A stretch of 64,000 nucleotides of DNA from Stratiformator vulcanicus. GTDB taxonomy: Bacteria > Planctomycetota > Planctomycetia > Planctomycetales > Planctomycetaceae. The first letter of the stretch is position 1, and every line of letters begins with the position of its first letter. The DNA is taken from NCBI RefSeq assembly GCF_007744515.1, contig NZ_CP036268.1, positions 1,837,712-1,901,711 on the forward strand. Direction: 5' to 3'. The notes under the pieces were generated by a model, which saw only the letters and a program-made list of their open reading frames with translations, had not been told where the DNA came from and ran no database searches. Position numbers and translations under genes: made by a program. Positions 38,245 to 57,195 of the stretch are shown here, one piece after another.

Positions 38245-38943
38245 TCACCCGTTACCATTGCCGGGCCGAAACCGATATCCGATGCCTCGGACGGTCTCGA
38301 CGTAATCGGCCTTCTGGTTCAGTTTCTGCCGCAAAGAACGGATGTGGACGTCGATCGTGCGTTCGAGGGCGTTGGCGTCTTCGCCTCGGCACGTATCCAT
38401 CAATTCGTTGCGGCTGAATGGCCGACCGGGCTGCCGAATCAGCGTCCACAGCAATCGGAATTCCGTCGGGGTGAGACCGACCTCTTTGCCGTCAATCGTA
38501 CACATGTGATTGACACGATCGATGGTGACGCCGCCGGAGGCGAGTTGATCAGACTGTTGCCCGTTCGCCGGGGTCCGTCGCAGCAATGCCTTGATGCGAT
38601 GAATCAGAGGTTTCGTCTTGAACGGTTTCAGAACGTAGTCGTCGGCGCCCATGCTGAAACCGACGATTTCGTCGACCTCCTCCCCACGGGCAGTCAGCAT
38701 CAAGATTCGCAGATGCTGTGTGCGCGGATCGCTCCGCAGCTCTCGGCAAACCTCCAAGCCGTCAAACACCGGCAGCATCAGATCGAGAATGATGAGATCG
38801 GGCAGGAGCGACTGGGCCCGCCGGAGCCCGTCCTGACCATCGGCACAATGGACGACGTCAAAGCCTTCCCTCTCCAGATTGTACTGAAGAATCTCGGCCA
38901 GATCGCGTTCGTCCTCGACCAAGAGGATATTGGGCTTTTTCAT
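38245..38943 (-). CDS. phoB: Phosphate regulon response regulator PhoB-like
   Basis: A 232-residue OmpR-family regulator. The N-terminal receiver has ILLVEDERDLAEIL, phosphoacceptor Asp in LIILDLMLPVFDGLEVC, the Thr/Ser switch in ILMLTARG and Lys in DDYVLKPF. The C-terminal winged helix includes LTPTEFRLLWTLIRQPGRPF and TIDVHIRSLRQKLNQKADYV with RGIGYRF. The PhoB assignment follows from the PhoU and PhoR genes upstream on the same strand. It probably binds Pho boxes after phosphorylation by PhoR. Confidence 0.93.
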   Translation of the reverse strand: MKKPNILLVEDERDLAEILQYNLEREGFDVVHCADGQDGLRRAQSLLPDLIILDLMLPVFDGLEVCRELRSDPRTQHLRILMLTARGEEVDEIVGFSMGADDYVLKPFKTKPLIHRIKALLRRTPANGQQSDQLASGGVTIDRVNHMCTIDGKEVGLTPTEFRLLWTLIRQPGRPFSRNELMDTCRGEDANALERTIDVHIRSLRQKLNQKADYVETVRGIGYRFRPGNGNG

Positions 38944-39005
38944 TTTGCCTTCGCGGCTGCACCTGTCCGCGTCGAAATGGGAGTTTAAATAGGCCCCGAG
39001 CGGAA

Positions 39006-39737
39006 TTATAGGCCCGGGCTGGTCGGTTCCGCCATGTCCGGCGGCACATTGATTTCTTCGCCCGGAGCCCGATCGGGAAACTTCTTGCGGTGCCGGATAA
39101 TGGCCCCCTCGACCATGTAGACCGCTTCTTCCGCAATGTTGGTTGCGTGGTCAGCCACGCGTTCCAAGTGACGACTGGCGGAGAACAGATGCAGCGCCGG
39201 GTCGACCTGCGTCGGTGAGGACTTCATCACCTCGGTCAGTTCTCCGATAATCTCGCGATTCAGTTCATCGACGATATCATCGTCGTTGCACACGGCCCGT
39301 GCTTTCTCAGTGTCGAGTTCGACATACGCGTCGATACTGCGACGGAGCATATCGAGGGCGAAACGCGCCATCTGCGGGAGTCGCCGCGGCACTTTCACCT
39401 TCATCTCGGCATCGACGAGACCGGCAGTCCGTTCGGCAATATGGACGCCGAGGTCTGCACAGCGTTCGAGTTCTTTACTAATCTTCAAGACCGTCACGAT
39501 GCGACGCAAATCGATCGCGACCGGTTGGTGCAGGGCGAGAATCTTCAGGCATTTCTCTTCGATCTGCACATCGTACCAGTCGATCCTGCGGTCCTCTTCG
39601 GCCAGCTTCGCCACGAGTGATTCGTCGGGCCTATCGATTTCGTCGATCGCTCGACCGAGAAGTTCCTCCGTCATCGCGCACATCGTGAGGATGTCGCGAT
39701 GCAGCGTCTCGAGATCTCGGATCAGGTGAATCGACAT
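39006..39737 (-). CDS. phoU: Phosphate signalling protein PhoU
   Basis: A 243-residue all-helical cytosolic protein with two PhoU repeats (LETLHRDILTMCAMTEELLG and, in the second half, MARFALDMLRRSIDAYVELD), each carrying the acidic metal-cluster residues. PhoU normally links the Pst transporter to PhoR and dampens the Pho response. Here it lies between phoR and phoB on the same strand; no pst genes are in the window. ATG 39737 (MSIHLIRDLETL) is preferred to an upstream start at 39818. Confidence 0.93.
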   Translation of the reverse strand: MSIHLIRDLETLHRDILTMCAMTEELLGRAIDEIDRPDESLVAKLAEEDRRIDWYDVQIEEKCLKILALHQPVAIDLRRIVTVLKISKELERCADLGVHIAERTAGLVDAEMKVKVPRRLPQMARFALDMLRRSIDAYVELDTEKARAVCNDDDIVDELNREIIGELTEVMKSSPTQVDPALHLFSASRHLERVADHATNIAEEAVYMVEGAIIRHRKKFPDRAPGEEINVPPDMAEPTSPGL

Positions 39738-40052
39738 GAAAAAAGGCCCGCCATTCCGTGAGCAACTCGGCTCTTCATTCAGACGCTCGTGCCGGTGGCC
39801 ATTCCATTTCCGGCTCAAATGAAGTCGCCCGACGTGGAGAAGTCGTCTCCTCCACGAATCAACCTTCTAACAGTAGCACCTATCAAATCACCGATTGTCA
39901 AAATTGGTGATAAGTACCATTAAGATATCGTGAATTCTCCATAAATGCTTCCTATGCTTTCAGATAGCGGGAATCAAATTGTGGTGACTGGGCGGTCCTT
40001 CGACCATTTGAAGCGACAGCAACTCGATCCTGTCGGCCCGCGTCGATGTGGT
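39738..40052. other. Intergenic region between phoR and phoU with inverted repeats
   Basis: 315 bases. Two stem-loops are visible: CGTGGAG / CTCCACG at 39833-39856, and ATCACCGATT / AATTGGTGAT with loop GTCAA at 39887-39911 (one wobble). Either could be an attenuator or operator before phoU. No small gene is convincing. Confidence 0.45.
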
Positions 40053-41831
40053 TCAGGCCTGCGGGAGATGCACCGTGAAGGTGCTGCCCTCGTCGACAAC
40101 GCTCGCGACTTCGATCCGTCCGCGAAAGACCTGCACGAGGTGCTTTACGATCGCCAAACCGAGTCCGGTTCCGCCGGCGGCCCGTGACCGTGCCGCGTCG
40201 ACCCGGTGAAATCTTTCGAAGACTCGGGCGAGGTGTTCCTCGGGGATTCCGATTCCGGAATCACGAACTTCGATGTGTGCCTCCCCATTTTCGCTGAGCC
40301 AACGGAGCCACACCCTTCCGCCGCAGGGGGTGTAATTAATCGCGTTGTCGACGAGATTGTCGAGAATCGTCCGCATCCCTTCGCGATCGACCTCGACGCG
40401 GACCGCATCGACGCTTGGAATGATTTCCAACCGAACGTCTTTCGCACTGGCGACCTCGGAATGCTCTCGCACACAGTCTTCAACCAACTTCGCGACGTCG
40501 AGTTTTGCCATGTCGAAGACATCGAGCCCCGACTCAATCCGCGCCAGCCTGAGCAGGTCGCCGATCAAATTGCTGAGCCGGTCGGTTTGATCCGACACCC
40601 GTTGCAGGAACCTCTCCAGATCGTTCGGATTATCCTTCGCCCCATCGAGAATTGTCTCGACGCAGGCACTGATGACGGCGAGCGGCGTCTTGAGTTCGTG
40701 ATGCACGTTGGACACGAATTCGTTACGTAGTCGTTCCAGGCGACGCAGTTCCGTCACGTCGTGCAGGACGATCGCGACACCCGGGCAGGGTGTTCCGGGT
40801 AGGCGTCCCGCACGGAGGGCCACAATCTTGGACTGTTTCGACATTTCGATTTCCTGCGTGGCCGACGGTTCGCCGTTGAGCGCGCTTTGCGCCACCTTTT
40901 GAATCGAGTTATTGCGAACCACCTCCCACAACGGCCGGCCCAGCAGGTCGCCGGGAGGCAAGTCGAGCATCCGTACCGACGCGGCATTCGTTAGCAAGAT
41001 GCGTTCGGCGGGATCAACGGCGAGGACGCCTTCGGTCATGCCTTCGAGGACGGCCGCCGACCGTTCACCACGCTGTTTCAAGGATTGATTTTCGTCTTTC
41101 AGCCCGGAGATGATCTCGGCTTGAGCTTCATCCATCCGCCGTAGTGCCTGCTGCAATCGCGACAGTTCGTCACCCCCGCCCGAGTTGGGAAGGCGGATTC
41201 CGGACCCTTCCCGCGCGGCGACATCAGCAGCTTTCGTCAGTTCTCCGATCGGACTGGAAACACGCTGCGAAACCCAGGCGGCGATGCAAAACCCGACCAA
41301 GCCAAGGATTCCCGACCAAAGTCCAATCGAGACGCGGAAATTGCTCACCTCTTCGTCGATCGTGCTCATGGGCACCGATGTTCTCACGAAACCACGAAGC
41401 CCATCGGGCGGACCGATCCGGCGGGCCGCATAGAAAATTCGTCCCTGCGTTTCGTCGAATCGAATATCGGTGCCGAATCCGACGTTCTGTGCTCGCAGCA
41501 ATTCGACGTTTCGCAGTTGATTTGGTAGTTCCGGAACTTGCTCACTACTGTCAGCCAAGACGGTCCCGTCCGCTCGAATGATCGTGATCCGAGTCCCGGT
41601 CGCGGCCGCCACCCGTTCAACTCTACTTTGAAGTTTCGCGTCGGTGGAACGATCGAAATCCTCAACGAGGCCGGCGGCGACGACGAGATCGGCACCGTTA
41701 AGCCGGATTGCCAATTGCTGCAGGAGTGATGCCTGCAACTGATTCCCACAGACCCACGCCAGACAGAACGCAGCGGAAGCGGCGAGAACGAAGTACGGCA
41801 GAAGAAATTTCCAAAACAGGCGGTACCTCAT
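40053..41831 (-). CDS. phoR: Phosphate regulon sensor kinase PhoR-like
   Basis: A 592-residue membrane sensor kinase. One membrane helix at the N-terminus (FLLPYFVLAASAAFCLAWV), a periplasmic sensor region of about 140 residues, a second helix (LWSGILGLVGFCIAAWV), HAMP (RVSSPIGELTKAADVAAREG), PAS (VLEGMTEGVLAVDPAERILL), HisKA with the H-box FVSNVHHELKTPLAVI, and HATPase_c with NLVDNAINYTPCGG, DSGIGIPEEHL and GGTGLGLAIVKHLV. The order is that of PhoR/WalK-type kinases; PhoR is chosen because phoU and phoB follow on the same strand. It would phosphorylate PhoB under phosphate limitation. Confidence 0.93.
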   Translation of the reverse strand: MRYRLFWKFLLPYFVLAASAAFCLAWVCGNQLQASLLQQLAIRLNGADLVVAAGLVEDFDRSTDAKLQSRVERVAAATGTRITIIRADGTVLADSSEQVPELPNQLRNVELLRAQNVGFGTDIRFDETQGRIFYAARRIGPPDGLRGFVRTSVPMSTIDEEVSNFRVSIGLWSGILGLVGFCIAAWVSQRVSSPIGELTKAADVAAREGSGIRLPNSGGGDELSRLQQALRRMDEAQAEIISGLKDENQSLKQRGERSAAVLEGMTEGVLAVDPAERILLTNAASVRMLDLPPGDLLGRPLWEVVRNNSIQKVAQSALNGEPSATQEIEMSKQSKIVALRAGRLPGTPCPGVAIVLHDVTELRRLERLRNEFVSNVHHELKTPLAVISACVETILDGAKDNPNDLERFLQRVSDQTDRLSNLIGDLLRLARIESGLDVFDMAKLDVAKLVEDCVREHSEVASAKDVRLEIIPSVDAVRVEVDREGMRTILDNLVDNAINYTPCGGRVWLRWLSENGEAHIEVRDSGIGIPEEHLARVFERFHRVDAARSRAAGGTGLGLAIVKHLVQVFRGRIEVASVVDEGSTFTVHLPQA

Positions 41832-42624: not shown

Positions 42625-43020
42625 TTGAGTATGTAGTATATTCGGTCGTCGCTCGGATTGAAGTGTAACGGCGACGGAACCGGCAATTCGAGTTTCTCAG
42701 ATCCGTCGAGGCGGGACGCGACAGAACACATTCGCGCCTCACAACCGGACGCAGAACCTGCCGAAGCCACGGATTTGCATTTTTCTCGACGAGGGAAGTC
42801 GGAACGAATGCCGATAGATTCCTTCGCGCCCCAACCTTCGGGCTGAGAGCCGGCTCGCTACGACTTCACCCGCATCAGACAGGATCTTGCGCGGAGAAGT
42901 TCGCGGTGAATCGTCCGGAGAGACTTTTCAAGTTGATTCTGGCACCGGGCCAACCTTCCCGTAAAATAATGTGGCGTTCAACGGCATGGACGAACCGACG
43001 GTGACCAGAACGGCGCTTTC
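42625..43020. other. Intergenic region
   Basis: 396 bases between tRNA-Met and the GNAT gene. Open frames of up to 62 codons lack domain or codon support. No hairpin of note. Confidence 0.4.
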
Positions 43021-43584
43021 ATGAAATACATTCGTCGATTTCGTATGGAAGTCCGCTGTGATGCGGTGTCCGGTACCTCAGAACTGCCGGATGGCTACCG
43101 GTGGGTGCGCTGGACTCCGGAACTGGCTCGACGACATGCCCGGGTCAAATTCCTCAGCTTTCGGTCGGAAATCGATACGCGATTGTTCAGTTGTTTCGAG
43201 ACGTATCGCGGCTGCCTGAAGCTGATGAACGACATCTGCCGCCAGTCTTCTTTTTTTCCCGACTCGACCTGGCTGATCGCGAAGCAATCGTTCGTCGACC
43301 TCTCGACACTCGATTGCGGCACAATTCAAGGGATGCGTGTCGCCGAGAAGCTCGGTGCGATTCAAAATGTCGGTATTATTCGCGATGCCCGAGGGCTGGG
43401 ACTCGGACGTGCCCTCGTCGTAAAAGCGATTGAAGGCTTTCGCGAAACGGGAGCCCAGCGGGTCTATCTTGAAGTCACAGCCGACAACCGCCCGGCCGTC
43501 GCGCTGTACGAATCGCTCGGTTTTCGGGTGACCCGCACAATGTTCAAGGCCGCTCGACGTTTTTCAGCGCCGGTTCGCGTCTGA
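43021..43584 (+). CDS. GNAT-family N-acetyltransferase
   Basis: A 187-residue acyltransferase. The acetyl-CoA-binding loop is IIRDARGLGLGRALVVKAIE (R-G-L-G-x-G-R-A pattern), followed by VYLEVTADNRPAVALYESLGF, typical of RimI-like GNAT proteins. The N-terminal 100 residues differ from common GNAT proteins (WVRWTPELARRHARVKFLSF). Substrate unknown. ATG 43021; it converges with the GT39 gene downstream. Confidence 0.82.
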   Translation: MKYIRRFRMEVRCDAVSGTSELPDGYRWVRWTPELARRHARVKFLSFRSEIDTRLFSCFETYRGCLKLMNDICRQSSFFPDSTWLIAKQSFVDLSTLDCGTIQGMRVAEKLGAIQNVGIIRDARGLGLGRALVVKAIEGFRETGAQRVYLEVTADNRPAVALYESLGFRVTRTMFKAARRFSAPVRV

Positions 43585-43617
43585 TGCGACGCTCGCTGCA
43601 AATGCAGCGGTGCGAAA

Positions 43618-45351
43618 TCATTTTCGGGCGTCGATGATCGCCGGAAGGATGGCCGTTTGCGTCGGCGAATCGCTGAGTTTGCGGCAGACGGTGACGAGAA
43701 CTTCTTCATCTTGGTGATCTCGACCCTCCCGGAAGCGATCGATCTGCACTTCCCCGATGACCTCGTATTCGAAGGGGATCTCTTCTTCCGGCAGCAAGTT
43801 CCAGACGGCGAAGATCGGTCCGACGAGTTCAGGGTTCTCAGCCGCGTCGGCCGGCTTGATCATTGGAATGTGTCGGTCGAAGTGAAATACGAACTGATGC
43901 GGCAATGGCCCTACACTGGTCAGAGGAGCGTTCCCGATCATTGTGTCTCGGGCAACGGCCACGTTGGCAGCCGCGTCAATCTGCACGTTGACGCGGGTGT
44001 TGAGCATGAACCCGGTGAAGGTCAGGCCGAGGACGCAGCCTATGCACGTGACGGCCAATCGGATTTCATTGGCCCGTGCCCGCCGATGCAGTGAAAGCAG
44101 GATTGCGGCGGCGGCCAGGCAGACCAGGCAGAACAGCGATACGAAAGCGGGCGGCTGCTGTAGCCGAACCAAGACGCCCCACGGCTGGAGAGCAATGGCG
44201 ACGACAGCCGCGGCGAGCCCGACCGACGCCACCGCAGAGCCTCTCAGAGTCATCGGCCACCAATGAGCCAACCACCCCGTGCGTTTCGGATCGGTCGCGA
44301 ATTCACAAGCGGCACCGATCATCACCGCGAGCAGTGGATAGAGCGGCATGAAGTAGCGTGGAACGGCATCGGCGGCAAACCAAATCGACGGGAACGTCAC
44401 GGCCGCAGCCAATAGGTGAAACTGCGAAAGTCCTCGAAGATCGACACGTTCACGCCAAAAAGACTTTGTCGCGAGTGGGATCAATCCGATCGACCACGGC
44501 ATCATGCAACCGAAGACTTCCAGCGGGAACGTCAGCAGGTGCTTGATGAGCCGGGAGTAGTTCGTGGTGCTGTGGAAGTTATTTGTCGCGAGCTTAAACC
44601 ATACGCCGTATGCGTTGCGCGGTCCGGCCTCAAGCAAATACGGGATTTGCCAGGCTCCGACGATTCCGACGAAACTGAGTCCGCCAACAACATGTGCGGC
44701 TGAGAAAAGCGTTTTCCAGTCACGTCGCCAAAGCAGGAATGCGACGACGGGAGCCCCGAAATACACCGGCCCCTGCGGACCTTTGGCGAGGGCGGCGAGC
44801 GCCGCAAGGCTGTAGCCGGCCGTCCAAAAAATCCAAGGTGAGATGCCCTTCGAATAGCCAAAGTGCCATACCATCAGCGATGAGGCGAGTAGTAACGTGA
44901 AGACCGCTTCGGTCTCCGCCGTCCACCCGATATCCATCACCTGCGCCATCGTCGCGAAGGCGACCGCCGCGACAAACGACGCAGCTCGACTGAGGTATTG
45001 CGTGCTGTAGAAGTAGATGACGAGTGTTGTCAGCAGAATCGCGATCACCGAGGGCAACCGGGCCGCAACGACGTCAACCCCGCCGCGGGCCGCGCCGGCA
45101 ATGGCGATCAGCCAATTCCCGAGCGGAGGCCGGCTGTGATAGAACTCGCCCTGCTGACGAGGCACGATCCAATCCCCGGACCGCAACATCTCGACGGCAA
45201 CCTCGGCGCGGCGTGTCTCTTCGCCACGCAGATGCAAGGTTGTAAGCCGCCCGGCGTAAATGCCAACGACCAAGAGCGTAAGGATCGCGACATCGACGAT
45301 CCACTTGCGATCCGCGAAAAGACGCCGCTCTCCCGCCGGTTCGTTCATCAT
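43618..45351 (-). CDS. GT39/ArnT-like membrane glycosyltransferase
   Basis: A protein of about 577 residues with roughly ten or more membrane helices. The first periplasmic loop carries LHLRGEETRRAEVAVEMLRS and IVPRQQGEFYHSRPPLGNWL, the acidic and R-P-P-L pattern of polyprenyl-phosphate-dependent GT-C transferases (ArnT/PMT superfamily). It probably moves a sugar from a polyprenyl carrier onto lipid or protein at the periplasmic face. ATG 45351 has AAGGA 6 bases upstream. Part of a block with a PAP2 gene upstream on the same strand and a second GT39 gene divergent. Confidence 0.85.
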   Translation of the reverse strand: MMNEPAGERRLFADRKWIVDVAILTLLVVGIYAGRLTTLHLRGEETRRAEVAVEMLRSGDWIVPRQQGEFYHSRPPLGNWLIAIAGAARGGVDVVAARLPSVIAILLTTLVIYFYSTQYLSRAASFVAAVAFATMAQVMDIGWTAETEAVFTLLLASSLMVWHFGYSKGISPWIFWTAGYSLAALAALAKGPQGPVYFGAPVVAFLLWRRDWKTLFSAAHVVGGLSFVGIVGAWQIPYLLEAGPRNAYGVWFKLATNNFHSTTNYSRLIKHLLTFPLEVFGCMMPWSIGLIPLATKSFWRERVDLRGLSQFHLLAAAVTFPSIWFAADAVPRYFMPLYPLLAVMIGAACEFATDPKRTGWLAHWWPMTLRGSAVASVGLAAAVVAIALQPWGVLVRLQQPPAFVSLFCLVCLAAAAILLSLHRRARANEIRLAVTCIGCVLGLTFTGFMLNTRVNVQIDAAANVAVARDTMIGNAPLTSVGPLPHQFVFHFDRHIPMIKPADAAENPELVGPIFAVWNLLPEEEIPFEYEVIGEVQIDRFREGRDHQDEEVLVTVCRKLSDSPTQTAILPAIIDARK

Positions 45352-45491
45352 TCCCAATCCTTGGGAGTCGCTGGTTAGATCAGGGGGATCGCGGTCGGCT
45401 CTAGCCTGATAAGCCGCGATGAATCACCGACGAATCGAGCATCGGCGGCACATGTCGAGCATTTCTCAATGTCTCGACCCGCCACCGGGTT

Positions 45492-46196
45492 TTAGCTCTT
45501 TGGCTCAAAACGCGGAATAAGAATCTTCGTGCACAGAGTGCCGAATAACAGCCCGACACTCAGGCCGACCAGAACGTCGCTTGGAAAGTGTGCACCGGAA
45601 TTGATGCGGTGTCCGACAACCAGCACTGTGAACAAGGCGAACAGGCCGCGGCCCTTCGGGTAGTAATACGTCAGGATGACAGCCAACCCGGCGGCGGTCG
45701 CCGAATGGGCCGAGGGGAAGCTGTGGGGAGCGCCGCCGGAGGCGATTCCCGGTAACCAATCGACAAACGTTGAACTCGTCGAGAGGTTGGCGAAGTCGTA
45801 GTTACGCGGACGAATTCGACCGACGAACAATTTCAGAATGTCGGCGGAAATCCCCGCTCCGGCCGCCGTGGAAAGTACGGCCCATGCTTTGAACAGCCGC
45901 TGTTTTGTCGGAAGTGCTTCGAGCGCAAATACGACTAAAGCGATCGCAACGACACCGACTCCGTGACCGAACGGTTCGATATTGTTGAGAATTGTTCGCA
46001 GCAGCCCGATATGAGCGGCTTCCTGCTTAAAAAGCAGATTCGAAAGCACGACGTCGTACGGTGCGACAACGACCGCAGCGACAAGCAGTGCCGATGGCAA
46101 TCCCCACCACGGCAACGTCGCAGCCGATGCGCCTTCTTCGGCTTTTGATACCGAGGGACGGGACTCGATTCGAGCGAGCGGCTCGGCCGCGGACAT
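45492..46196 (-). CDS. PAP2-family membrane phosphatase
   Basis: A 234-residue inner-membrane protein with about five helices. The three PAP2 motifs are present: KLFVGRIRPRNYDF, SFPSAHSATAAGL and GHRINSGAHFPSDVLVG, supplying the Lys/Arg, Ser/His and Arg/His/Asp phosphatase residues. It may act on phosphatidic acid, undecaprenyl pyrophosphate or lipid A. ATG 46196 (MSAAEPLARIE) is chosen; the frame stays open to 46433. It lies upstream of the GT39 gene on the same strand. Confidence 0.88.
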   Translation of the reverse strand: MSAAEPLARIESRPSVSKAEEGASAATLPWWGLPSALLVAAVVVAPYDVVLSNLLFKQEAAHIGLLRTILNNIEPFGHGVGVVAIALVVFALEALPTKQRLFKAWAVLSTAAGAGISADILKLFVGRIRPRNYDFANLSTSSTFVDWLPGIASGGAPHSFPSAHSATAAGLAVILTYYYPKGRGLFALFTVLVVGHRINSGAHFPSDVLVGLSVGLLFGTLCTKILIPRFEPKS

Positions 46197-46420
46197 GGCG
46201 GTCGCCGTTGTTAGTGGAGACAAGTTATTCGCTTTCGGCGCGGAACCGTAGCAGGGAGTTGGAGATTCCGGAAGCCGGATTCGTGCCACGGTTTCGAGAT
46301 GCGATATCGACGCTCCGATTCGGCGTTGTCTGATGACGGTACTTTTCACTACGTTTCGCCGCCCGACGCGATCACGTGTCGGCAAGCAATAACCTGCAAT
46401 GACCGCTGTGGATTGTCCGA

Positions 46421-48250
46421 ATGTCGCGCGCAACTGTCCGTCGTGATCTGCTTCTGTTGTCGCTATTAGCCGGTACGGTCTTCTTTTTCGACCTCGGCGG
46501 AGCCGACCTGTTTGACGACGACGAGCCGAAGAATGCGGGCTGCGCGGCGGAAATGTATGCCCGCGGCGACTGGTTGGTGCCGACGTTCAACGGCGAACTC
46601 CGGTTGCACAAACCGATCCTGCTCTACTGGTTCATGCTGACCTCGTATCACATGTTCGGCGTAACGGAATTTGCGGCGCGATTCTTTTCCGCATTTTTCG
46701 CTGTCGGCACGGTCCTGTTGACCTACGACATCGGCCGTCGGCTCTTCGACCGTTCCGCCGGGCTCTGGTCGGCAGTCGCGCTGGCTACGTCACCGATGTT
46801 TGTGGTTGTGGCCAGGGCCGCCAATCCCGATTCGGTTTTGATCTTTCCGATCACCCTCGCTTTCTGGGCATATCTTCGGCTGATTCTCAGACAGAACGGA
46901 GGCGTACTGCCGGACGGTCAGACGTTGAAGACCGGTGATCCATCGGACTCGCAAGACGCCTGGAAGCAACTGATTCCCCGCGGCTGGACGATGTTGCTGC
47001 CGTATTCGGCGATGGCGGTCGCCGTGCTGGCCAAAGGGCCGATCGGTTTCGTGATGCCTTGCGGCGTCCTCGGCCTGTTTATCTATCTGCGTTCGTTGGG
47101 ACCGCAGACAACGTCGACCGAGTCGTCCTTCTGGTCTGCAGTGCTATCGACCATCCAGCACTATATTCGCCCTGTTCAACTGGTCCGTGTCGCGCTGGCG
47201 ATGCGACCGGACCTATTAATTCTTGCCCTGCTTGTTATCGCTTCACCGTGGTACATCGCGGTAGGAATTGCGACCGAAGGCGAATGGCTCGCCGGATTCC
47301 TTGGGCGTCACAATGTCGGGCGATTCTTAAAGCCGATGGAAGGCCACGGCGGCTCGCCGCTCTATTATGTGGTCGCGATCATCGCTGGCACGTTCCCCTG
47401 GTCGGTCCTGCCGTTCCCGATCGCCTGGCAAGTCGCACGGGACTTTAAAGCGGGAGATCGATCTCGAACGTCTCACACGTTGGTCCTCTGCTGGGTCGGC
47501 GTCTTCGTCGTATTCTTTACCTTAGCACGCACAAAGCTGCCGAACTATGTCCTGCCGTGCTATCCCGCGGTTGCGTTGGTGATCGGCCGATTCTTTTCGA
47601 TTTGGTTGACTGAAGCGACTTCGTTGCCGGTTTGGACGCGTCGAGCCGCCAGTGTGATTCTCGTGACAGCGGGGGTCGGCATGGCTGTCGTGCTGCCGAT
47701 CGTCGCCGTTTATGTATTGCCGGGACAGGAGTATCTCGGATTAATCGGGCTGATTCCAATCGCCTCGGGCATCGTGTTCTATCGATTGTCAGAGGCCGGA
47801 CGATTTAACACCGCAAAGCAAAGCTTCGCCGTTTCATGCGTGGTGTTCGTTACCGCAATATTCTGGTTGGCTGCGCCGGGAGTCAGTCGGCAACAAATCT
47901 CACGTCGATTTGTCGAACAGATCGCGGCAGATCGGGCTGATCTGCCGCCAATCACGGTATTCGCCTTCTGGCGACCGAACCTCGTGTTTTATTCCCGGGG
48001 ACTCGTGCCGGGCTTCGATAGCTCGGAGGCGCTTGACGAGTATCTCGCCGAAAACCATACCGCCCGAATTCTGGTGCGTTCCACCGACCTCGAACGAATC
48101 GATCGGGAAATCACCGATCGCTATCGGGTCACCGACCGCACGCAGGGCTTCCTCAGACAGGACGATGTCCTTCTGCTGGAGCCCGCGAATGATCTCAGCG
48201 AACAAGAATTAAGATTGGCCACGTTGCCTGCTGCTTCAGGGCTTCACTGA
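46421..48250 (+). CDS. GT39/ArnT-like membrane glycosyltransferase
   Basis: A 609-residue multi-spanning protein. After the first helix (LLLLSLLAGTVFFFDLGGAD) the periplasmic loop has DLFDDDEPKNAGCAAEMYAR, GDWLVPTFNGEL and LHKPILLYWF, close to ArnT (lipid A 4-amino-arabinose transferase) and related GT83/GT39 enzymes. The C-terminal part is a small soluble periplasmic domain. It heads a plus-strand run with the LptF/G-like permease and a second PAP2 protein, which supports a role in lipid A or envelope-glycan decoration. ATG 46421. Confidence 0.87.
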   Translation: MSRATVRRDLLLLSLLAGTVFFFDLGGADLFDDDEPKNAGCAAEMYARGDWLVPTFNGELRLHKPILLYWFMLTSYHMFGVTEFAARFFSAFFAVGTVLLTYDIGRRLFDRSAGLWSAVALATSPMFVVVARAANPDSVLIFPITLAFWAYLRLILRQNGGVLPDGQTLKTGDPSDSQDAWKQLIPRGWTMLLPYSAMAVAVLAKGPIGFVMPCGVLGLFIYLRSLGPQTTSTESSFWSAVLSTIQHYIRPVQLVRVALAMRPDLLILALLVIASPWYIAVGIATEGEWLAGFLGRHNVGRFLKPMEGHGGSPLYYVVAIIAGTFPWSVLPFPIAWQVARDFKAGDRSRTSHTLVLCWVGVFVVFFTLARTKLPNYVLPCYPAVALVIGRFFSIWLTEATSLPVWTRRAASVILVTAGVGMAVVLPIVAVYVLPGQEYLGLIGLIPIASGIVFYRLSEAGRFNTAKQSFAVSCVVFVTAIFWLAAPGVSRQQISRRFVEQIAADRADLPPITVFAFWRPNLVFYSRGLVPGFDSSEALDEYLAENHTARILVRSTDLERIDREITDRYRVTDRTQGFLRQDDVLLLEPANDLSEQELRLATLPAASGLH

Positions 48251-48345
48251 TTCAACCGTCCGTTCCCGCTAATCCCATCCTCTTCTCCCGTCTAAATGCG
48301 TCCCGCCAACTCCGGCACCTTCCACACTTAATATTGCTACCACGT

Positions 48346-49467
48346 ATGATCGGCACCTGCTTCGATCGCTATCTCATCGCCCGCTATATCCACGTGTTCG
48401 TGATCTTCACGATCGGAACGCTGGGTTTGGTGTCGGTGATCGACTTGCTCGACAACGTCGACGATTTCACGTCGCGCTGTGACACAACGCAGGAACTACT
48501 GCTTAGCATTGCGAAGTATTATTTCTTCCTGTCGCTTGCCGCGTTCGAAGTCATGGGCGGTCCCGTCGCATTACTCGCTTTGTGCGTAGTCTTATGGACG
48601 CTGCAGCGAAATAGGGAATTGCCGGTGATGTTGGCGGCCGGCGTCCCGACGGTGCGGATCGCCATCCCGCTCGTCGGCTGCGTGGGTTTTGCCATTCTGC
48701 TTGTCATCGCCGATCAAGAACTTGTTATCCCCCAGATCGCCCACCAGCTCAGTGAGTCCCGCGGTGCTAAAGAAGCGACCGGGCATAAGGCGGAAGCAGT
48801 CTATGACCGCTCCAGCGGCATCTTAATTCAGGGCCGAAACGTTTTTCTTAAGACCAAGACGTTAAGTTTCGCGGAGTTCGTGCTGCCGGCCCCATCACTG
48901 GTCGACAATCTTTCCCGCATAACCGCGGAGAAAGCCCGCTACGTCGAGCCGACGGGTGATCGGCCCGGAGGTTGGTGGCTGAAGAACCCATCGCCCTCAT
49001 ACGAGGAACTAGCATTGACCGACGCCGGTCAATCGGTCGTCCGCAAGGTGGCCGGAGAGTCCGACATCTTCGTGATTAGCGCCGTCACCTGCACGCTGTT
49101 GCATAAGCGAGATTCGAGCTTCACTCGGATGTCGATTGCCGAACAGTTCGGGCTTCTTAAAAGCGGGGCGATCGCTGAGTCGACTTGTCGGCGAATTCGG
49201 GCCCACCTCCACCAACGGATGACGCTTCTTCCTACTTATCTGGCCGCCGCCTGCCTCGTGGTGCCATTAATGATTCGCCGCGAAGCCAGTGATGGTCCAC
49301 TGGCATTTGCTCGCTCAATTCTTGCGGCGGGAGTCGCCTTCGGGATTCTCCAGGGTTGCGGATTTCTCGCGCACGCGGGAATCGTACCCGGCGAAGCTGC
49401 CGCATGGACTCCCATCTGTTTCTGCGCGTCTGCAGCCACCTGGTTCCTAAAGGATATCGCGACGTGA
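48346..49467 (+). CDS. LptF/LptG-family permease (YjgP/YjgQ)
   Basis: A 373-residue inner-membrane protein with three N-terminal helices (FVIFTIGTLGLVSVIDLLDN onward), a periplasmic beta-jellyroll-like region around 130-270, and three C-terminal helices, the LptF/LptG layout. These proteins form the LptB2FG exporter that moves lipopolysaccharide to the outer membrane. Only one such gene is seen here; lptB and the partner are not in the window. ATG 48346 (MIGTCFDRYL) is preferred to TTG 48334. Its stop overlaps the PAP2 start by 4 bases. Confidence 0.88.
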   Translation: MIGTCFDRYLIARYIHVFVIFTIGTLGLVSVIDLLDNVDDFTSRCDTTQELLLSIAKYYFFLSLAAFEVMGGPVALLALCVVLWTLQRNRELPVMLAAGVPTVRIAIPLVGCVGFAILLVIADQELVIPQIAHQLSESRGAKEATGHKAEAVYDRSSGILIQGRNVFLKTKTLSFAEFVLPAPSLVDNLSRITAEKARYVEPTGDRPGGWWLKNPSPSYEELALTDAGQSVVRKVAGESDIFVISAVTCTLLHKRDSSFTRMSIAEQFGLLKSGAIAESTCRRIRAHLHQRMTLLPTYLAAACLVVPLMIRREASDGPLAFARSILAAGVAFGILQGCGFLAHAGIVPGEAAAWTPICFCASAATWFLKDIAT

Positions 49468-50354
49468 ACAAGACACTCGACGAAGCAATTTCCGAAGAAC
49501 CGGCGTCCCACGAAGTGCGAGAAGACCGTTCGGGTTTTCGCCCGCCGCACGGCTGGGATGTCGGTAAAGTGGCCGACTTTCCTCTGCTATGGCCGCTCAG
49601 TCTGGTCATCGGGGCCTCAATCCTGGTCGTTGTGACGGGAGCTGATCTCGCGATTACACGATCCTTTTACCAATTCGCAGACCCTTCAACGCATTTGCAA
49701 CCGGGATGGATTCACGCGGATAAGCAGCCTTGGCGGTGGATCGATGAGCAACCCGTTCGTCTTGTCATTGCGATGGTGGCCGCATCAATCGCGGGAATGG
49801 TCATCGGATATTTCTCACCATCTCGCAGGCGCTGGATGGTAGCCGGGATGTTCATTCTCGCGGTGATGGCGATCGCTCCCGGACTAATGGTTAATGGGAT
49901 ATTTAAAGGGGCATGGGGCCGTCCCCGTCCGACACATGTCGCTGAGTTCGGAGGCCAAGCCGAGTATCAGCCGTTCTGGCAAATCGGAAACGATCCGATT
50001 AATCACAAGGGCTTTCCCTCAGGCCACGGTACGATGGCTTTCACGCTCATGGTGCCGGCATTCCTATTCGGCACTCGCCACCGAAAATATGCCCTGCTGT
50101 GGCTCACCGGCGCGATCTGCGTCGCCTCCGCTGTCGGACTCGCGCGGATCGCCCAAGGAGCGCACTTCACATCAGATATTTTGATGTCAGGGGCGCTGGT
50201 TTATGCGGTGGCGATCGGCTTTCGACCGCTATTCTTCGAGGTCGACCGGAGTGGCGGAAGCGTTATTGATCGTCTGCGCTGCGGGCGGCAATCGAAAGAA
50301 GACTTAAATGACCAAGATCAGGGCAAAACTATTGCGATTCAGAAAGCCGCTTAG
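49464..50354 (+). CDS. PAP2-family membrane phosphatase (LpxE-like context)
   Basis: A 296-residue membrane protein from GTG 49464, with AAGGA 9 bases upstream and a GTGA overlap with the preceding permease stop, showing translational coupling. PAP2 motifs: GIFKGAWGRPRPTH, KGFPSGHGTMAF and ARIAQGAHFTSDILMS. Its coupling to an LptF/G-like gene suggests a lipid A phosphatase, but undecaprenyl-pyrophosphate phosphatase is also possible. The C-terminal tail is charged and cytosolic. Confidence 0.88.
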   Translation: MNKTLDEAISEEPASHEVREDRSGFRPPHGWDVGKVADFPLLWPLSLVIGASILVVVTGADLAITRSFYQFADPSTHLQPGWIHADKQPWRWIDEQPVRLVIAMVAASIAGMVIGYFSPSRRRWMVAGMFILAVMAIAPGLMVNGIFKGAWGRPRPTHVAEFGGQAEYQPFWQIGNDPINHKGFPSGHGTMAFTLMVPAFLFGTRHRKYALLWLTGAICVASAVGLARIAQGAHFTSDILMSGALVYAVAIGFRPLFFEVDRSGGSVIDRLRCGRQSKEDLNDQDQGKTIAIQKAA

Positions 50355-50439
50355 GCATTAAATAGCATCACGCGTTAGCGGAATTATTATTTTCGCGATT
50401 GCTGGCGAAATTCCCCTGCCAACGCAGCTCCGATGCAGT

Positions 50440-51972
50440 CTAATTAATTGCAGCACCTCCGCCGGTGGCCGCTTCCATAATCGCTTGTTCGGTGAATTCG
50501 CCACGGGTGAATTTGCCAGTGAGGCGGCCTTCGCACAGTATCAGAATACGATCACAGAGGGTCATTAATTCCGGCAACTCGCTCGAAGTCACGATCACCG
50601 CCATCCCCTGCCGGGCCAGCTTATTGATGATCTGATAGATGTCTGCCTTCGCCCCGACGTCGACGCCGCGGGTTGGGTCGTCGAGCAACAGCACCTGCGG
50701 GTTCGTCCGCAGCCAACGGGCGATGATGCACTTTTGCTGGTTGCCGCCGGAAAGGCTCATCACGTTCGCCTCCGTCCCAGCGGTCTTAATTCCCAGTGAT
50801 GCCACCGATTCGCGTGCCGCTTGACGTTCTTTCTTAAGAGAAACAACGCCTCGGCGTGCCACTTGATTGAGCGTGCATTGCGTCACGTTCTCGCGGACTG
50901 TCATTAATGAGAACAGCCCGAGCCGTTTGCGGTCCTCGGTTACGAGTGCGATCCCGGCCTTCATCGCTTGATGCGGGGCGTCAAAATGAACGGCCCGACC
51001 ATTGAGTTCGATCAGACCTTGCGGCCGCTCCGGACTGGTGCCGAACAGGCACTCCAATAGTTCAGTGCGTCCCGCCCCCATTAGGCCGGCGAAACCGAGC
51101 ACTTCTCCCGCTCTCAAATCAAAGTGAATGTCCTCCAGTCGCCACTGCTTCGCATGACCGGGCCGGGGTAATTTAAGACTATGGATACTGAGCACGACAT
51201 CGCCAAGAGTACGGTCGCCTACAAGATCAGCATTCTCGATCTCGCGTCCGACCATCTGGTGAGTCACTTCACGCGGCGATGTCTCTGATCGATCGAGCGT
51301 CGTCACGTGGCGGCCATCGCGGAGGACCGTAATGCGATCGGCAAGACGGAAAACCTCGTCCATTTTGTGCGAAATATAGAGGATCGTTGTGCCCCGCTCG
51401 CGAAGTGTGGCGATGACGCGATAAAGGCGTTCGACTTCGCCCTCCGTCAGCGCGCTTGTCGGCTCGTCCATAATTAGGACGTCACTCTTCAGCGAAAGGG
51501 CTTTGGCGATTTCGACGAGCTGCTGATCTCCAATTCTTAATTCGGATACGGGTCGCGCCGGCGCAATGTCGGTTTCTAAGTCCTTAAAGAGCGAACGAGC
51601 CTCCTCATTCATCTGGCGTTCGTTGAGTAGTCCGAACCTTGTCGTCCGTTCTCGTCCCAAGAACACGTTCGCTGCCGCGGAGAGTTCTTCGACGAGATTG
51701 AGTTCCTGGTGAATAATGCTGATCCCGGCGGCCTCGGCATCTTGGGTGCCGGTGAAGCGGACCGGTCGGCCCCGCACGGCGAGCTCGCCTTCGTAGTCGG
51801 TCAACACGCCCGAAAGAATCTTCATCAGGGTGCTTTTGCCGGCACCGTTCTCACCGCAAATCGCGTGCAGTTCACCGTCGGCCACGTCGAAAGAAACGTC
51901 TTCTAAAGCGGTGATGCCGCCGAAGCGTTTACCGATGCCGCGAATTGAGACGGCAGTTGTTGCTACATTCAC
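50440..51972 (-). CDS. Sugar ABC transporter ATPase, duplicated NBD (RbsA/MglA-like)
   Basis: A 510-residue cytosolic ATPase with two nucleotide-binding domains. The first has Walker A GENGAGKSTLMKIL, signature-like LRIGDQQLVEIAKAL and Walker B VLIMDEPTSAL; the second has the usual degenerate Walker A GLMGAGRTELLECL, signature LSGGNQQKCIIARWL and LLLDDPTRGVD. This is the monosaccharide-importer type. No permease or binding-protein gene is adjacent; instead it overlaps the upstream Uma2 gene by 4 bases (GTGA). The partner genes must be elsewhere or absent. Confidence 0.93.
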   Translation of the reverse strand: MNVATTAVSIRGIGKRFGGITALEDVSFDVADGELHAICGENGAGKSTLMKILSGVLTDYEGELAVRGRPVRFTGTQDAEAAGISIIHQELNLVEELSAAANVFLGRERTTRFGLLNERQMNEEARSLFKDLETDIAPARPVSELRIGDQQLVEIAKALSLKSDVLIMDEPTSALTEGEVERLYRVIATLRERGTTILYISHKMDEVFRLADRITVLRDGRHVTTLDRSETSPREVTHQMVGREIENADLVGDRTLGDVVLSIHSLKLPRPGHAKQWRLEDIHFDLRAGEVLGFAGLMGAGRTELLECLFGTSPERPQGLIELNGRAVHFDAPHQAMKAGIALVTEDRKRLGLFSLMTVRENVTQCTLNQVARRGVVSLKKERQAARESVASLGIKTAGTEANVMSLSGGNQQKCIIARWLRTNPQVLLLDDPTRGVDVGAKADIYQIINKLARQGMAVIVTSSELPELMTLCDRILILCEGRLTGKFTRGEFTEQAIMEAATGGGAAIN

Positions 51973-52664
51973 CCGTCTTCCCTGCGAATCAGACGATACC
52001 GATTGTATCCGGCAGGGTTAAGGGACCGCTCCAGTCGAAACGCAGCATCTAGCACGTCTGAGCGCAGAAAACCGTTCTCGTCGGGTTGCCGCTCGACATA
52101 TTGAGAAGATTCGGGATCACGCGTGAGTAGGTCGAACTGCAACGCTTCTTCACGGGCATCGACGAGCCAATATTCAGCCACGCCCGCTTCAAAATACGCG
52201 GTCCGCAACTTTTCCTTATCTTTGAATACGGAACTGTCGCTGACGATTTCGACCACTAAAGCGACCGGACCCTCGACGAGCGTGAATTTCCCCGGCCTGT
52301 TATTCGATGGCGGATGAAGTTTGACATCGCCGTTTCGAATTGACTCGTAAGTCACGACGAGGATATCCGGCTCAGCCGACAGGTTACCTGGTACCGACTT
52401 TAATCGCGCGTCCGATATGTAAACCTCGCCCAAGTCCAACTCGACGGTCCGAAGTGTGATTTCAACTGCAATATGCGTTTTGGGGCCGCCATGATCGGCG
52501 AGTTCCTCCGCATTCATATCGATCTCAATATCACCATCGATGTAATCGATACGTCCCCGCAGGGGAAAATGATCAGACCGTGCCCAAGCGGTGAAATTTT
52601 CCAATGACTCGGCTGCGCCGAGCGGAATTTGGACGTCGGGGTCATGAAAAATGACGGTCGACAT
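51969..52664 (-). CDS. Uma2-family (DUF820) PD-(D/E)XK nuclease-fold protein
   Basis: A 231-residue cytosolic protein of the restriction-endonuclease-like fold, a family expanded in Planctomycetes and Cyanobacteria. Visible core: RGRIDYIDGDIEID, AEPDILVVTYE and the active-site-like strand VALVVEIVSDSSVFKDKEK. Biological role is not established for the family. ATG 52664 has GAGAGG upstream. Its stop overlaps the ABC ATPase start, so the two are co-translated. Confidence 0.88.
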   Translation of the reverse strand: MSTVIFHDPDVQIPLGAAESLENFTAWARSDHFPLRGRIDYIDGDIEIDMNAEELADHGGPKTHIAVEITLRTVELDLGEVYISDARLKSVPGNLSAEPDILVVTYESIRNGDVKLHPPSNNRPGKFTLVEGPVALVVEIVSDSSVFKDKEKLRTAYFEAGVAEYWLVDAREEALQFDLLTRDPESSQYVERQPDENGFLRSDVLDAAFRLERSLNPAGYNRYRLIRREDG

Positions 52665-52913
52665 GGCCGGTTTCCTCTCTCGGCGCCGGAACACTATTCA
52701 CCATTATCTCAATGGCTCTTTCCGACGCAATCGCTAATTGCGGTTGATCGCTATCGTGTCTGGAAGCGAAGAGCATCGAAACTAACCGGCGACTGATCCG
52801 CGGTTCGTAGTGTCGACGGGCGTTTCCCCGATCGAATCATTTAATATCCAGATCCCTTGCTTGCGCTGCGGGCTTGTTCGATGACTTCGTCTGTTTTTAA
52901 TTGTTTCTTACAC

Positions 52914-55120: not shown

Positions 55121-56794
55121 TCAGCGAATCGCGGTGTCGGTCCCAGCCGAGTCGGCGAACGTCTTTCGAAGCGGCGTCGCATCAGCCGGCAGCGTCGGGC
55201 CGTCTTCGGTGCCGTAGAGCCGAAATAGCTTGTAGTGGCGACTTTCGCCCGCTCCGAGCGGAACGTTGATTTCGCCAAGTTCACGCCAGGCGAGGGCATC
55301 ATCCATCAGATGTTGCCCCGGCCCGCTGACTGCGGGGGTAATGACGTAGGCACCGGTCCGCCCGATCTCCGCCGGGTCGGGCCACAGGTCGTACTGGCTG
55401 ATGATTCGGCCGGTCGGATTGTCGCAATCGACGAGCGGTTGGTCGGCGAGATAGAACGCGACGGGGCTCGCCGGCGTGCGATTCTCGGTGAAGATGACCG
55501 GGACCTCTCTTACCCGTTCATCGTCGGCCCATAATTGATCGATCGCTGCGGCGGTTTCCCGCCAACCGCGGAGTCGGATCGTCGGGTCGAGACCTGTTCC
55601 CGCAATGCCGGTGGCTGTTACAGCAAACGGAGTCGCATACGTGAGCAATGAGGCCGCGATGCCGGTCGCAATCGCAGCACGTCGCCACAGCATCTGACTG
55701 CCGAAGCGGTCCCAGACTTTCCACTCGGCTCCGACCTTCGAGCATAGGCAGGCTGCGACCAGAATCACCCCGGTCGCGTAAAACGGGGCCGGCCAGTTCG
55801 GTTGGACCCGCTGCAGCCAGCTCAAACCGAATACCCCAATCAACGGAACGATGCTGAAGGCGACGAGAAATCGTTCCCGTCGGCCCAACGATCGAAACGC
55901 CAGCAGGCAACCAATCCCGGCCGTCAGAAAGGTTCCGTACGTCACCGGCGACAGCACGCCGAACTGGCTGGCGAAGTATTCGAGTGCCCGAGCCATTCGC
56001 AGCGACAGTGGCGTCACTTCGGTCTTGGAGCCGAAATGCTCACTGGTATGTTGAAACGTGATCCAATCGTGCCGACTGTTCCACTCCAAGACCGGAAGCA
56101 GAAACAGCATCGCGACGATCGGCACAAGCCACGTCGAAGCGTGCCTGAGTTGCTTCCACTCGGACTTTGACGAAATGAGGAAAAGTCCCGTCAGCGGAAT
56201 CACTCCCAGCATCGTTTGCTTCGAGAGGACGCCGAGCCCGATCGCCAGCGTTGCGGCGATCGCCCAATAGTTTCTTTGCGGGCCGCCCTCGAGCATTCGC
56301 CACAGGGAATACACCGCCGCGCCCCAAAAGAACATCAGCGGGGCGTCGATGGTCATTAGCAGACTCATCACGACATTGCCGGGGCAGGCGGCCGCGAGCA
56401 GCGTCGCGAAGAACCCGGTGCGGGCATCGAACATTCGTCGCGACAACAGGAAGGCGAACACAAGCCCGCCAGTGCCCAGCAATACTGCTGGAAGCCGCAC
56501 CGCGAATGTCGTGTCGCCGAACAAGCCGGTCGAAGCCGCGATGATCCAGGCGATCATCGGTGGTTTGCTGTAATAACCCCAATCGAGGTGCCGCGACCAA
56601 TCCCAGTAGTAGGCCTCATCCGTCACCAAATCGAGCGGAACGACCGCCGCGTAGACGACGCGAACGACGGCCAGCCCGGCGATCAAGCCGAACGCGGCGC
56701 GCGTCCACACAAGCGTTTCAGAAGTGATGCCTGAATTCGGAGCTGATTCAGGCAACTGAGAACTGCTGCCGGTGGTCATCGCTGGCGCATCCAT
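55121..56794 (-). CDS. GT39/ArnT-like membrane glycosyltransferase
   Basis: A protein of about 557 residues with many membrane helices. The first periplasmic loop reads DEAYYWDWSRHLDWGYYSKPP, the canonical DE-xY-Y-W...G-Y-x-x-K-P-P motif of GT39/PMT-type transferases, followed by an extracytosolic C-terminal portion rich in charged and Gly/Pro residues. It probably uses polyprenyl-phosphate sugars; acceptor unknown. ATG 56794 (MDAPAM) has GGAG about 10 bases upstream. It converges with slyX. Confidence 0.87.
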   Translation of the reverse strand: MDAPAMTTGSSSQLPESAPNSGITSETLVWTRAAFGLIAGLAVVRVVYAAVVPLDLVTDEAYYWDWSRHLDWGYYSKPPMIAWIIAASTGLFGDTTFAVRLPAVLLGTGGLVFAFLLSRRMFDARTGFFATLLAAACPGNVVMSLLMTIDAPLMFFWGAAVYSLWRMLEGGPQRNYWAIAATLAIGLGVLSKQTMLGVIPLTGLFLISSKSEWKQLRHASTWLVPIVAMLFLLPVLEWNSRHDWITFQHTSEHFGSKTEVTPLSLRMARALEYFASQFGVLSPVTYGTFLTAGIGCLLAFRSLGRRERFLVAFSIVPLIGVFGLSWLQRVQPNWPAPFYATGVILVAACLCSKVGAEWKVWDRFGSQMLWRRAAIATGIAASLLTYATPFAVTATGIAGTGLDPTIRLRGWRETAAAIDQLWADDERVREVPVIFTENRTPASPVAFYLADQPLVDCDNPTGRIISQYDLWPDPAEIGRTGAYVITPAVSGPGQHLMDDALAWRELGEINVPLGAGESRHYKLFRLYGTEDGPTLPADATPLRKTFADSAGTDTAIR

Positions 56795-57195
56795 CTTGGC
56801 ACATCTCCGTCGCAAATCGGATCCCGATCCATCGGGCTACTCGACGGAAAGCTAGCAAAAGCCCCTACTGGGACGAAGATGAGTTCCGCGGGCGGGCTGC
56901 GCTCGCGGGTGAGAGTTTAGAGGCGAGAGGTGAGACATGTTTGATGGCGGGGTCCTGACCTGTTTGTCCCATAACTCTCAACCATTCGGATGCGGCTGCG
57001 CAACCGTCTCTGTTGGGGTAGAGGAACATACGGTGCGCACCGCCTCTGTTCGTCCCGCCGGTGGGGGTCGTTGAAAGACGGTCGTTCCCATGCGGCGGAT
57101 GTTGCCGCGGCAAAGCTGCGGACACGTGTCCGATTTTTTGAAGCTTTTAGCTGTCAACGTTTAGCTGTCAGCGAAAAAGAAAGAAGAACGGGCGG

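Follow-up and report, generated by a model that had tools for sequence, protein, structure and literature searches.

The closest described counterparts of the genes considered here are found in rhizobia, where, according to excerpts of the source papers (PMC7663294, PMC7795004), lpxE and rgtF together place galacturonic acid (GalA) at C-1 of lipid A, lpxF and rgtD place it at C-4', and rgtE encodes the donor synthase; lipid A with GalA at both ends is likewise described, in the excerpt of PMC7663294, for Oligotropha, Aquifex, and Caulobacter. The locus compared with these systems lies in a stretch of 64,000 nucleotides, analyzed as a whole and here called the window, from the planctomycete Stratiformator vulcanicus (NCBI RefSeq assembly GCF_007744515.1, contig NZ_CP036268.1, positions 1,837,712 to 1,901,711). 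At positions 43618-50354 of the window, five open reading frames (ORFs) encode two glycosyltransferases of family GT39, two PAP2 phosphatases, and a permease of the LptF/LptG type; together with a third GT39 gene beyond this interval, most of them appear to belong to a real, conserved envelope module that would represent a variant of the systems already known to combine lipid A phosphatases with glycosyltransferases. A first-pass annotation of the window had proposed a duplicated or paired module for decorating and dephosphorylating lipid A; its functional guess seems to have been largely right, and its duplication wrong. The genes would, with fair probability, form two pairs that first dephosphorylate and then glycosylate lipid A, arranged around a permease for lipopolysaccharide (LPS) export, such that lipid A is recapped at one or both ends before export by the Lpt system.

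The outer-membrane chemistry of planctomycetes is a long-standing gap. In Planctopirus limnophila, almost all of the genes lpxABCDKL are essential, as stated in an excerpt of PMC10632474. A lipid A backbone structure from planctomycetes was not found in the literature searched, whose coverage left out most subscription journals. Kerger is said to have contributed older work on fatty acids in 1988, and the LPS of Gemmata was reportedly treated by Mahat in 2015. No report of a linkage between LpxF and Lpt genes, or of gene clusters combining either LptG and PAP2 or GT39 and PAP2 with lipid A, was found among the titles and abstract openings searched.

Gene content of the locus

In the host genome, a single contig of 5.23 Mb, the five ORFs of the interval were labeled GTm, PAPm, GTp, LptG, and PAPp, and the third GT39 gene beyond it GT3:

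GTm, 43618-45357, minus strand: PMT_2/GT39 protein, diverged, with GEE instead of the DE motif; adjoins the conserved pairs and is not a member of them.
PAPm, 45492-46196, minus strand: PAP2 phosphatase, LpxE/YodM-like; the ORF can be extended to a TTG at 46433.
Intergenic region between the divergent PAPm and GTp, 46197-46420: assumes the ATG start for PAPm.
GTp, 46421-48250, plus strand: PMT_2/PMT protein, a predicted ArnT-like GT39 polyprenyl-phosphate-sugar transferase; partner of PAPm.
LptG, 48334-49467, plus strand: LptF_LptG permease, LptG-like.
PAPp, 49464-50354, plus strand: PAP2 phosphatase, LpxF-like, with a GTG start.
GT3, 55121-56815, minus strand: GT39 protein of the family that in relatives lies between LptG and PAPp (or after LptF2); here displaced and inverted.

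All five ORFs of the first-pass annotation were recovered at these coordinates with Pfam matches above cut-off, and the 4-base overlap it had described was found between the LptG stop and the GTG start of PAPp (49464-49467). The likely start of PAPm is an ATG in frame at 46196, not the TTG at 46433; with this start, 224 bp remain before GTp. A promoter and terminator scan yielded nothing beyond the level of shuffled sequence. The first-pass annotation had missed GT3, which is the GT39 conserved with LptF/LptG and PAP2 in relatives.

Family assignment of the predicted proteins

All three GT39 proteins exceed the Pfam cut-off for PMT_2 (26.1 bits), with 60 bits (3.6e-16) for GTp, 110 bits for GT3, and 54 bits for GTm; against the NCBIfam model of ArnT (NF009784) they score 114, 36, and 71 bits, respectively. 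GTp matches the solved ArnT structure 5ezm with 1.4e-19, and the GT3 profile does so with 5.3e-10. Residues D32, D34, and E35 of GTp are invariant in an alignment of 13 rows; the DE motif, which we take from work on ArnT to be the periplasmic GT39 motif that holds the catalytic residue, is present in all 13 GTp rows and all seven GT3 rows.

Both phosphatases carry PAP2 domains in Pfam (1.2e-20 for PAPm, 4.2e-24 for PAPp). PAPm shows the motifs K..R.RP, SFPSAH, and R..H..SD; its family profile (A4) finds the Aquifex LpxE 6ebu as best match among solved structures (4.8e-11), and among NCBIfam models LpxE (17 bits) ranks behind UppP (21.5 bits) and PgpB (17.6 bits). In PAPp the catalytic motifs K..RP, PSGH, and R..H..D are present, with K148, R155, P156, P185, S186, G187, H188, R228, H234, and D238 invariant across nine rows. 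The best NCBIfam family is LpxF (NF045633) for PAPp (84 bits) and for five relatives (79-146 bits), that is, for six of six members; in the predicted PAPp model (mean pLDDT 81.5), YodM is the first fold match, and a weak one. Judged by these matches, the nearest known relatives would be LpxF for PAPp, LpxE and YodM for PAPm, and ArnT for GTp and GT3, with the curated family cut-offs missed.

The permease of the window matches the Pfam domain LptF_LptG above cut-off (1.8e-24, 86.9 bits) over profile positions 1-352 of 353 and scores higher with the NCBIfam model of LptG (83 bits) than with that of LptF (34 bits); its similarity to the G chains in solved exporter structures is remote (best E 0.053). 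The only other PF03739 gene in the host genome is nearer to LptF (105 bits, against 83 bits for LptG). As these two, one of each type, are the only such genes of the host genome, the window LptG is probably the housekeeping LptG. A search of 40 genomes, in which split matches were merged by eye and two matches below cut-off (G185, G063) were left out, gave two PF03739 genes for the window genome and likewise for every one of the 12 genomes without PAPp. The 12 PAPp-positive genomes of families f5 and f11 each have three such genes, one of which is a direct companion of PAPp; every f5 genome in the sample was PAPp-positive. Among the other PAPp-positive genomes of family f1, G002 and G214 have three PF03739 genes and the rest two.

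Pair 1: PAPm and GTp

Among 218 genomes of the class, GTp (called at 400 bits or more) was found in 70, PAPm (E of 1e-25 or less) in 76, and both in 67, a co-occurrence with a Fisher value of 4e-42 (not corrected for phylogeny). Three genomes have GTp without PAPm and nine have PAPm without GTp; three of these nine carry fusions, in which PAPm and a GTp-like domain share one reading frame of 790-900 residues. These fusions were seen in genomes G027, G032, and G036 of the planctomycete family f4, and Pfam finds both a PAP2 and a PMT domain in the two that were checked (G027 and G036):

PAP2-GT39 fusions (about 790-900 residues, family f4): L107, 7132-9693; L108, 6534-8918; L109, 6240-8951.

In 28 of 75 GTp loci, PAPm lies within 500 bp, divergently in 25 and in tandem in three. 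Adjacency of the two genes is thus common and not universal: they adjoin each other in 27 of the 67 genomes that have both, counting a 130-residue PAPm fragment at a contig start (G230) as adjacent and omitting the GTp match of G209. An LptF gene, PAPm, and GTp follow each other on one strand in G044, with a 4-base overlap of PAPm and GTp, and in G117 GTp is preceded, at 0.9 kb, by an LptF/LptG gene. In 10 of the 75 class loci, GTp has an ArnC-like gene no more than 1.3 kb away; in the host genome, an ArnC-like gene adjoins another GT39 gene (L131).

As a separate observation, tandem pairs of GTp-type GT39 genes stand beside ArnC-like genes in family f15 (L205, L206, L209, L210, L211), and one locus of family f18 (L195) contains a GTp tandem as well.

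Pair 2: PAPp, GT3, and the Lpt permease

PAPp loci number 28, comprising those of 25 of the 218 class genomes (by profile) and of G002, G016, and G021 from an earlier draw of 40 relatives; gene calls in the loci come from searches of all ORFs, and the counts omit an additional PAPp-like copy, with one internal stop, on contig C27 of G002. In 27 of these loci PAPp has an LptF/LptG gene no farther than 2.5 kb away, and in 18 it has GT3 within this distance. The exception, G021, has PAPp beside PAPm and GTp, and its LptG-GT3 pair on a separate contig. The gene order is LptG-GT3-PAPp in seven f1 genomes, LptG-PAPp in six other genomes and the window, PAPp-LptF-GT3 in 11 f5 genomes, and LptF-PAPp in the f11 genome G099; in G016 (f1), an LptF-type gene is divergent from PAPp. 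Because the permease near PAPp is of LptG type in 14 loci and of LptF type in 13 according to our own profiles, the association of PAPp with an Lpt permease probably arose more than once. The NCBIfam ranking of LptF against LptG, obtained for the window LptG and 10 further permeases, agrees with these profiles in 10 of 10 permeases checked; only one (from the alphaproteobacterial locus L244) reaches the curated cut-off.

GT3 scores fall into two groups, with 18 of the 218 genomes at about 600 bits or more and the next at 314; the window GT3 reaches about 810 bits against its own family profile (A2). All 18 genomes also carry PAPp, and in 17 of them both genes lie no more than 2.5 kb apart. The eighteenth is the window, where GT3 is 4.8 kb from PAPp. 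Since GT3 is displaced and inverted here and GTp holds the place upstream of LptG, the window appears to be a rearranged form of the conserved cluster. Within the draw of 218 genomes, PAPp is accompanied by GTp in all 25 cases and by PAPm in 24; pair 2 exists only on top of pair 1 or, once, on top of GTp.

Occurrence outside the class

In a scan of named PAP2 relatives, the best 80 of 142 were kept; 43 of these loci belong to the PAPp family (at least 120 bits), and the remaining 37 encode other PAP2 proteins. Of the 43 PAPp-family loci, 19 have a gene of the GT39 or Lpt type at most about 6 kb away, compared with one of the 37 others (Fisher 1.3e-5, for the best 80 of 142); the L237 permease, which fell under the 30-bit threshold and was confirmed with Pfam, would bring the former count to 20. 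Similar clusters occur in Proteobacteria and Verrucomicrobiota. In the gammaproteobacterial locus L249, the order is an ArnC-like GT2 gene, GTp, a PAP2 gene that scores weakly as PAPm, GT3, PAPp, and, farther along, an LptF/LptG gene; four other loci (L215, L228, L245, L253) contain large parts of the combined gene set of both pairs. In the alphaproteobacterial L244, an LptG gene (252 bits in NCBIfam, cut-off 240) precedes GT3 and PAPp, and in three loci (L237, L240, L251) an LptF/LptG gene lies directly upstream of PAPp. The GT3 proteins of two Deltaproteobacteria (L215, L219) group among the planctomycete rows of the tree. The GT3 of L224, a Planctomycetaceae locus from the named set, is identical to that of L074, so that the two locus sets overlap, and also to that of G023, whose genome belongs to the same family as the window.

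Two plasmids were recorded in passing: pMM593 of Martelella has PAP2, GT2, and GT39 genes in a row, with a regulator-kinase pair adjoining the PAP2 gene, and an Acidithiobacillus plasmid has a GT2-GT39 pair.

Proposed function

From the genes, families, motifs, linkage, co-inheritance, and fusions described above, we infer the substrate (lipid A), the end served by each pair, the sugar, and any physical coupling to LptG. Lipid A would be built in the cytoplasm, where LpxK provides the 4'-phosphate, and then flipped across the inner membrane. On the periplasmic face, the LpxE-like PAPm and the LpxF-like PAPp would strip phosphates, most simply those at C-1 and C-4', respectively; GT2 enzymes resembling ArnC and RgtE would make a polyprenyl-phosphate sugar carrier, and the ArnT/Rgt-like GTp and GT3 would move the carrier sugar onto the freed positions. 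LptB2FG, with the window LptG as a subunit, would extract the modified lipid, stripping and recapping presumably taking place on the periplasmic side just ahead of extraction. LpxK is encoded in 39 of the 40 genomes searched and scores 256 bits in the window genome. Genome comparison (neighborhoods, co-inheritance, fusions, and the Lpt link) supports the function proposed by the first-pass annotation, a paired set of genes for dephosphorylating and decorating lipid A, and corrects the pair membership: the pairs are PAPm with GTp and PAPp with GT3, and GTm stands outside the conserved set.

Several observations weigh against this interpretation. The scores stay below the curated cut-offs, with PAPp at 84 bits under a cut-off of 400 (NF045633), GTp at 114 under 567 (NF009784), and the window LptG at 83 under 240 (TIGR04408), and the predicted PAPm fold (mean pLDDT 82) matches YodM (5jki) first and LpxE (6ebu) second. 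PAPm and GTp are not adjacent in 40 of the 67 genomes that have both. Outside the class, 24 of the 43 PAPp-family loci show no labeled neighbor (23 after confirmation of the L237 permease), although some contigs are short; all six loci titled Geobacteraceae, Geobacter, or Geomonas are among them. The PAPp-positive genome G016 (completeness 91%) has no LpxK match. The co-occurrence tests across the 218 genomes carry no correction for phylogeny, and the genome searches with alignment queries scored the best first-look candidates alone, which makes absences less sure than presences. The likening to the rhizobial systems is one of gene logic.

Alternative explanations

The first-pass annotation had seen mirror-image halves around the intergenic region, as would result if a single GT39-PAP2 unit had been duplicated in inverted orientation. 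Two GT39 and two PAP2 genes do lie on opposite strands, but read outward from the axis the left side has PAP2 and GT39 and the right side GT39, LptF/LptG, and PAP2, an order that is not mirrored, and in relatives the members are split between two different conserved pairs. GTm and GTp are 23% identical; PAPm and PAPp can be aligned over no more than 115 residues around the catalytic motifs (E=0.001). Searches of the host genome with PAPm and PAPp recovered each protein itself alone, and those with GTp and GTm gave no match to the respective other. A GT39 tree of 68 rows places GTm, GTp, and GT3 each on one side of a branch with supports of 94, 70, and 100; the tree was built with a "quick" method and contains several long branches, such that its deep joins are unsure. 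In a PAP2 tree of 133 rows (FastTree), PAPm and PAPp fall into separate groups with supports of 93 and 90. A scan of 43000-51000 for repeats of at least 20 nt found short imperfect matches alone and no trace of duplication. Where the first-pass annotation had looked to synteny and to the phylogenies of the GT39 and PAP2 proteins, synteny was found to be conserved, whereas the paralogues were not sisters; by these trees and pairwise comparisons, inverted duplication is already refuted.

The genes could otherwise serve carrier recycling, the PAP2 proteins acting as undecaprenyl-(pyro)phosphate phosphatases and the GT39 proteins glycosylating LPS core, O-antigen, or envelope proteins. The weak matches of PAPm and its relatives to UppP, SepP, and PgpB models and the YodM-like fold of PAPm fit this explanation, as does the activity of LpxE enzymes on C55-PP as well (abstract of PMC6581854), a point that also tells against lipid A as the substrate. 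We regard recycling as unlikely: the six PAPp members are all best matched by LpxF, an Lpt permease lies within 2.5 kb of PAPp in all but one locus, and two distinct PAP2-GT39 pairs are hard to account for by recycling alone. The chemistry of GT39 enzymes, moreover, releases polyprenyl monophosphate, which leaves a pyrophosphatase unneeded. Very unlikely, in our estimation, is the export of a different envelope lipid, tailored by the PAP2 and GT39 proteins, through the Lpt permease found here and above all through the extra LptF of f5 and f11; this third permease is indeed surplus to a normal LptF and LptG pair, and the window LptG is distant from solved exporters, but the window genome encodes LpxK and a single permease of each type, and the same neighborhood recurs in Alphaproteobacteria, once with an LptG above the curated cut-off. 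A chance grouping of widespread envelope genes that share no pathway would draw on the large size of the GT39 and PAP2 families and on the window's exact five-gene order, seen in no other locus examined; against the near-constant Lpt neighbor of PAPp, the tight co-inheritance, the fusions, and the contrast with other PAP2 loci outside the class (19 of 43 against one of 37, among the best 80 of 142), it is already improbable, to the point of hardly deserving consideration.

The two dephosphorylating and glycosylating pairs proposed for lipid A may be extended by one further step, offered tentatively and as doubtful: lipid A remodeling could be physically and evolutionarily coupled to the Lpt exporter, with the LpxF-type phosphatase and the GT39 acting on LPS that is at, or bound for, LptF/LptG, and with a dedicated extra LptF that in some planctomycetes exports or licenses a phosphate-free, sugar-capped form. 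In that case, a neutral or uronic-acid lipid A with phosphate missing at one or both ends would be the basis of the outer membrane in planctomycetes.

GTm and neighboring genes

In GTm and its eight strong relatives, the DE motif is replaced by an invariant GEE followed by P/S/T and RR; GTm had no match among solved structures at E 0.1. As a candidate member of the module GTm was rejected: the eight relatives with strong orthologues show none beside PAP2, GT3, or Lpt genes, with contigs or stretches short in two of the eight. GTm may be a local addition. On the minus strand of locus L117 (7769-12401), its orthologue, a polyprenyl-phosphate GT2-like gene, and a further GT39 gene seem to form an operon, which may be a third sugar-transfer system.

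Minus-strand genes at 38245-41831, some 2-5 kb away from the block, encode a response regulator with Trans_reg_C, PhoU, and a PAS-histidine kinase, resembling PhoB/PhoU/PhoR; through them, phosphate starvation could be linked to the dephosphorylation of lipid A. No PhoU relative was labeled in the relatives' loci; some of these, for example L128, which holds a PAPm gene, contain generic matches to response regulators or kinases. On the other side, a gene of the Uma2 family (putative restriction endonuclease; 51969-52694, minus strand) lies between an ABC transporter ATPase gene and a lipoyl-domain gene resembling dihydrolipoamide dehydrogenase.

Implications for planctomycete lipid A

The gene sets predict a sugar-capped, phosphate-poor lipid A, modified at one end by PAPm and GTp or at both ends where PAPp and GT3 are added, a prediction that is testable by mass spectrometry. 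A phosphate-free lipid A would affect resistance to cationic peptides, phosphorus economy, and membrane charge. The repeated union of an LpxF-like phosphatase with LptF or LptG, within the class and beyond it, raises a more general possibility, open to testing, that the tailoring of lipid A is linked with the exporter.

Comparison with known systems

Each predicted component resembles a characterized protein and departs from it in a particular way. GTp aligns with ArnT (5ezm) over two segments that lie between residues 12 and 415, and it has retained the DE motif; ArnT transfers L-Ara4N onto phosphates, whereas the conserved partners here are phosphatases, and the ArnT model cut-off is not reached. 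PAPp and its tested relatives find their best family in the lipid A 4'-phosphatase LpxF and share the PAP2 catalytic motifs, but remain below the cut-off, and the window protein matches over residues 93-249 of 296 alone. The lipid A 1-phosphatase LpxE is the top solved-structure match of the PAPm profile, although YodM outranks it by fold and the LpxE model scores low. The window permease has the full-length domain of LptG and LptF in LptB2FG, and the single LptG-like and single LptF-like gene of the host genome are as expected for a heterodimer; it differs in its distance from solved exporters, its score below cut-off, and its neighbors, which are predicted lipid A modifying enzymes. The pairs as such parallel the rhizobial and mesorhizobial combinations lpxE plus rgtF and lpxF plus rgtD, in which, as predicted here, a PAP2 phosphatase and then a membrane-bound polyprenyl-phosphate-sugar transferase serve each end of lipid A; the planctomycete pairs differ in being tied to LptF/LptG genes and, in one family, fused. 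Three features are new in comparison with these systems: an Lpt permease is almost always a neighbor of the LpxF-like member, two families have an extra LptF, and PAP2 can be fused with GT39.

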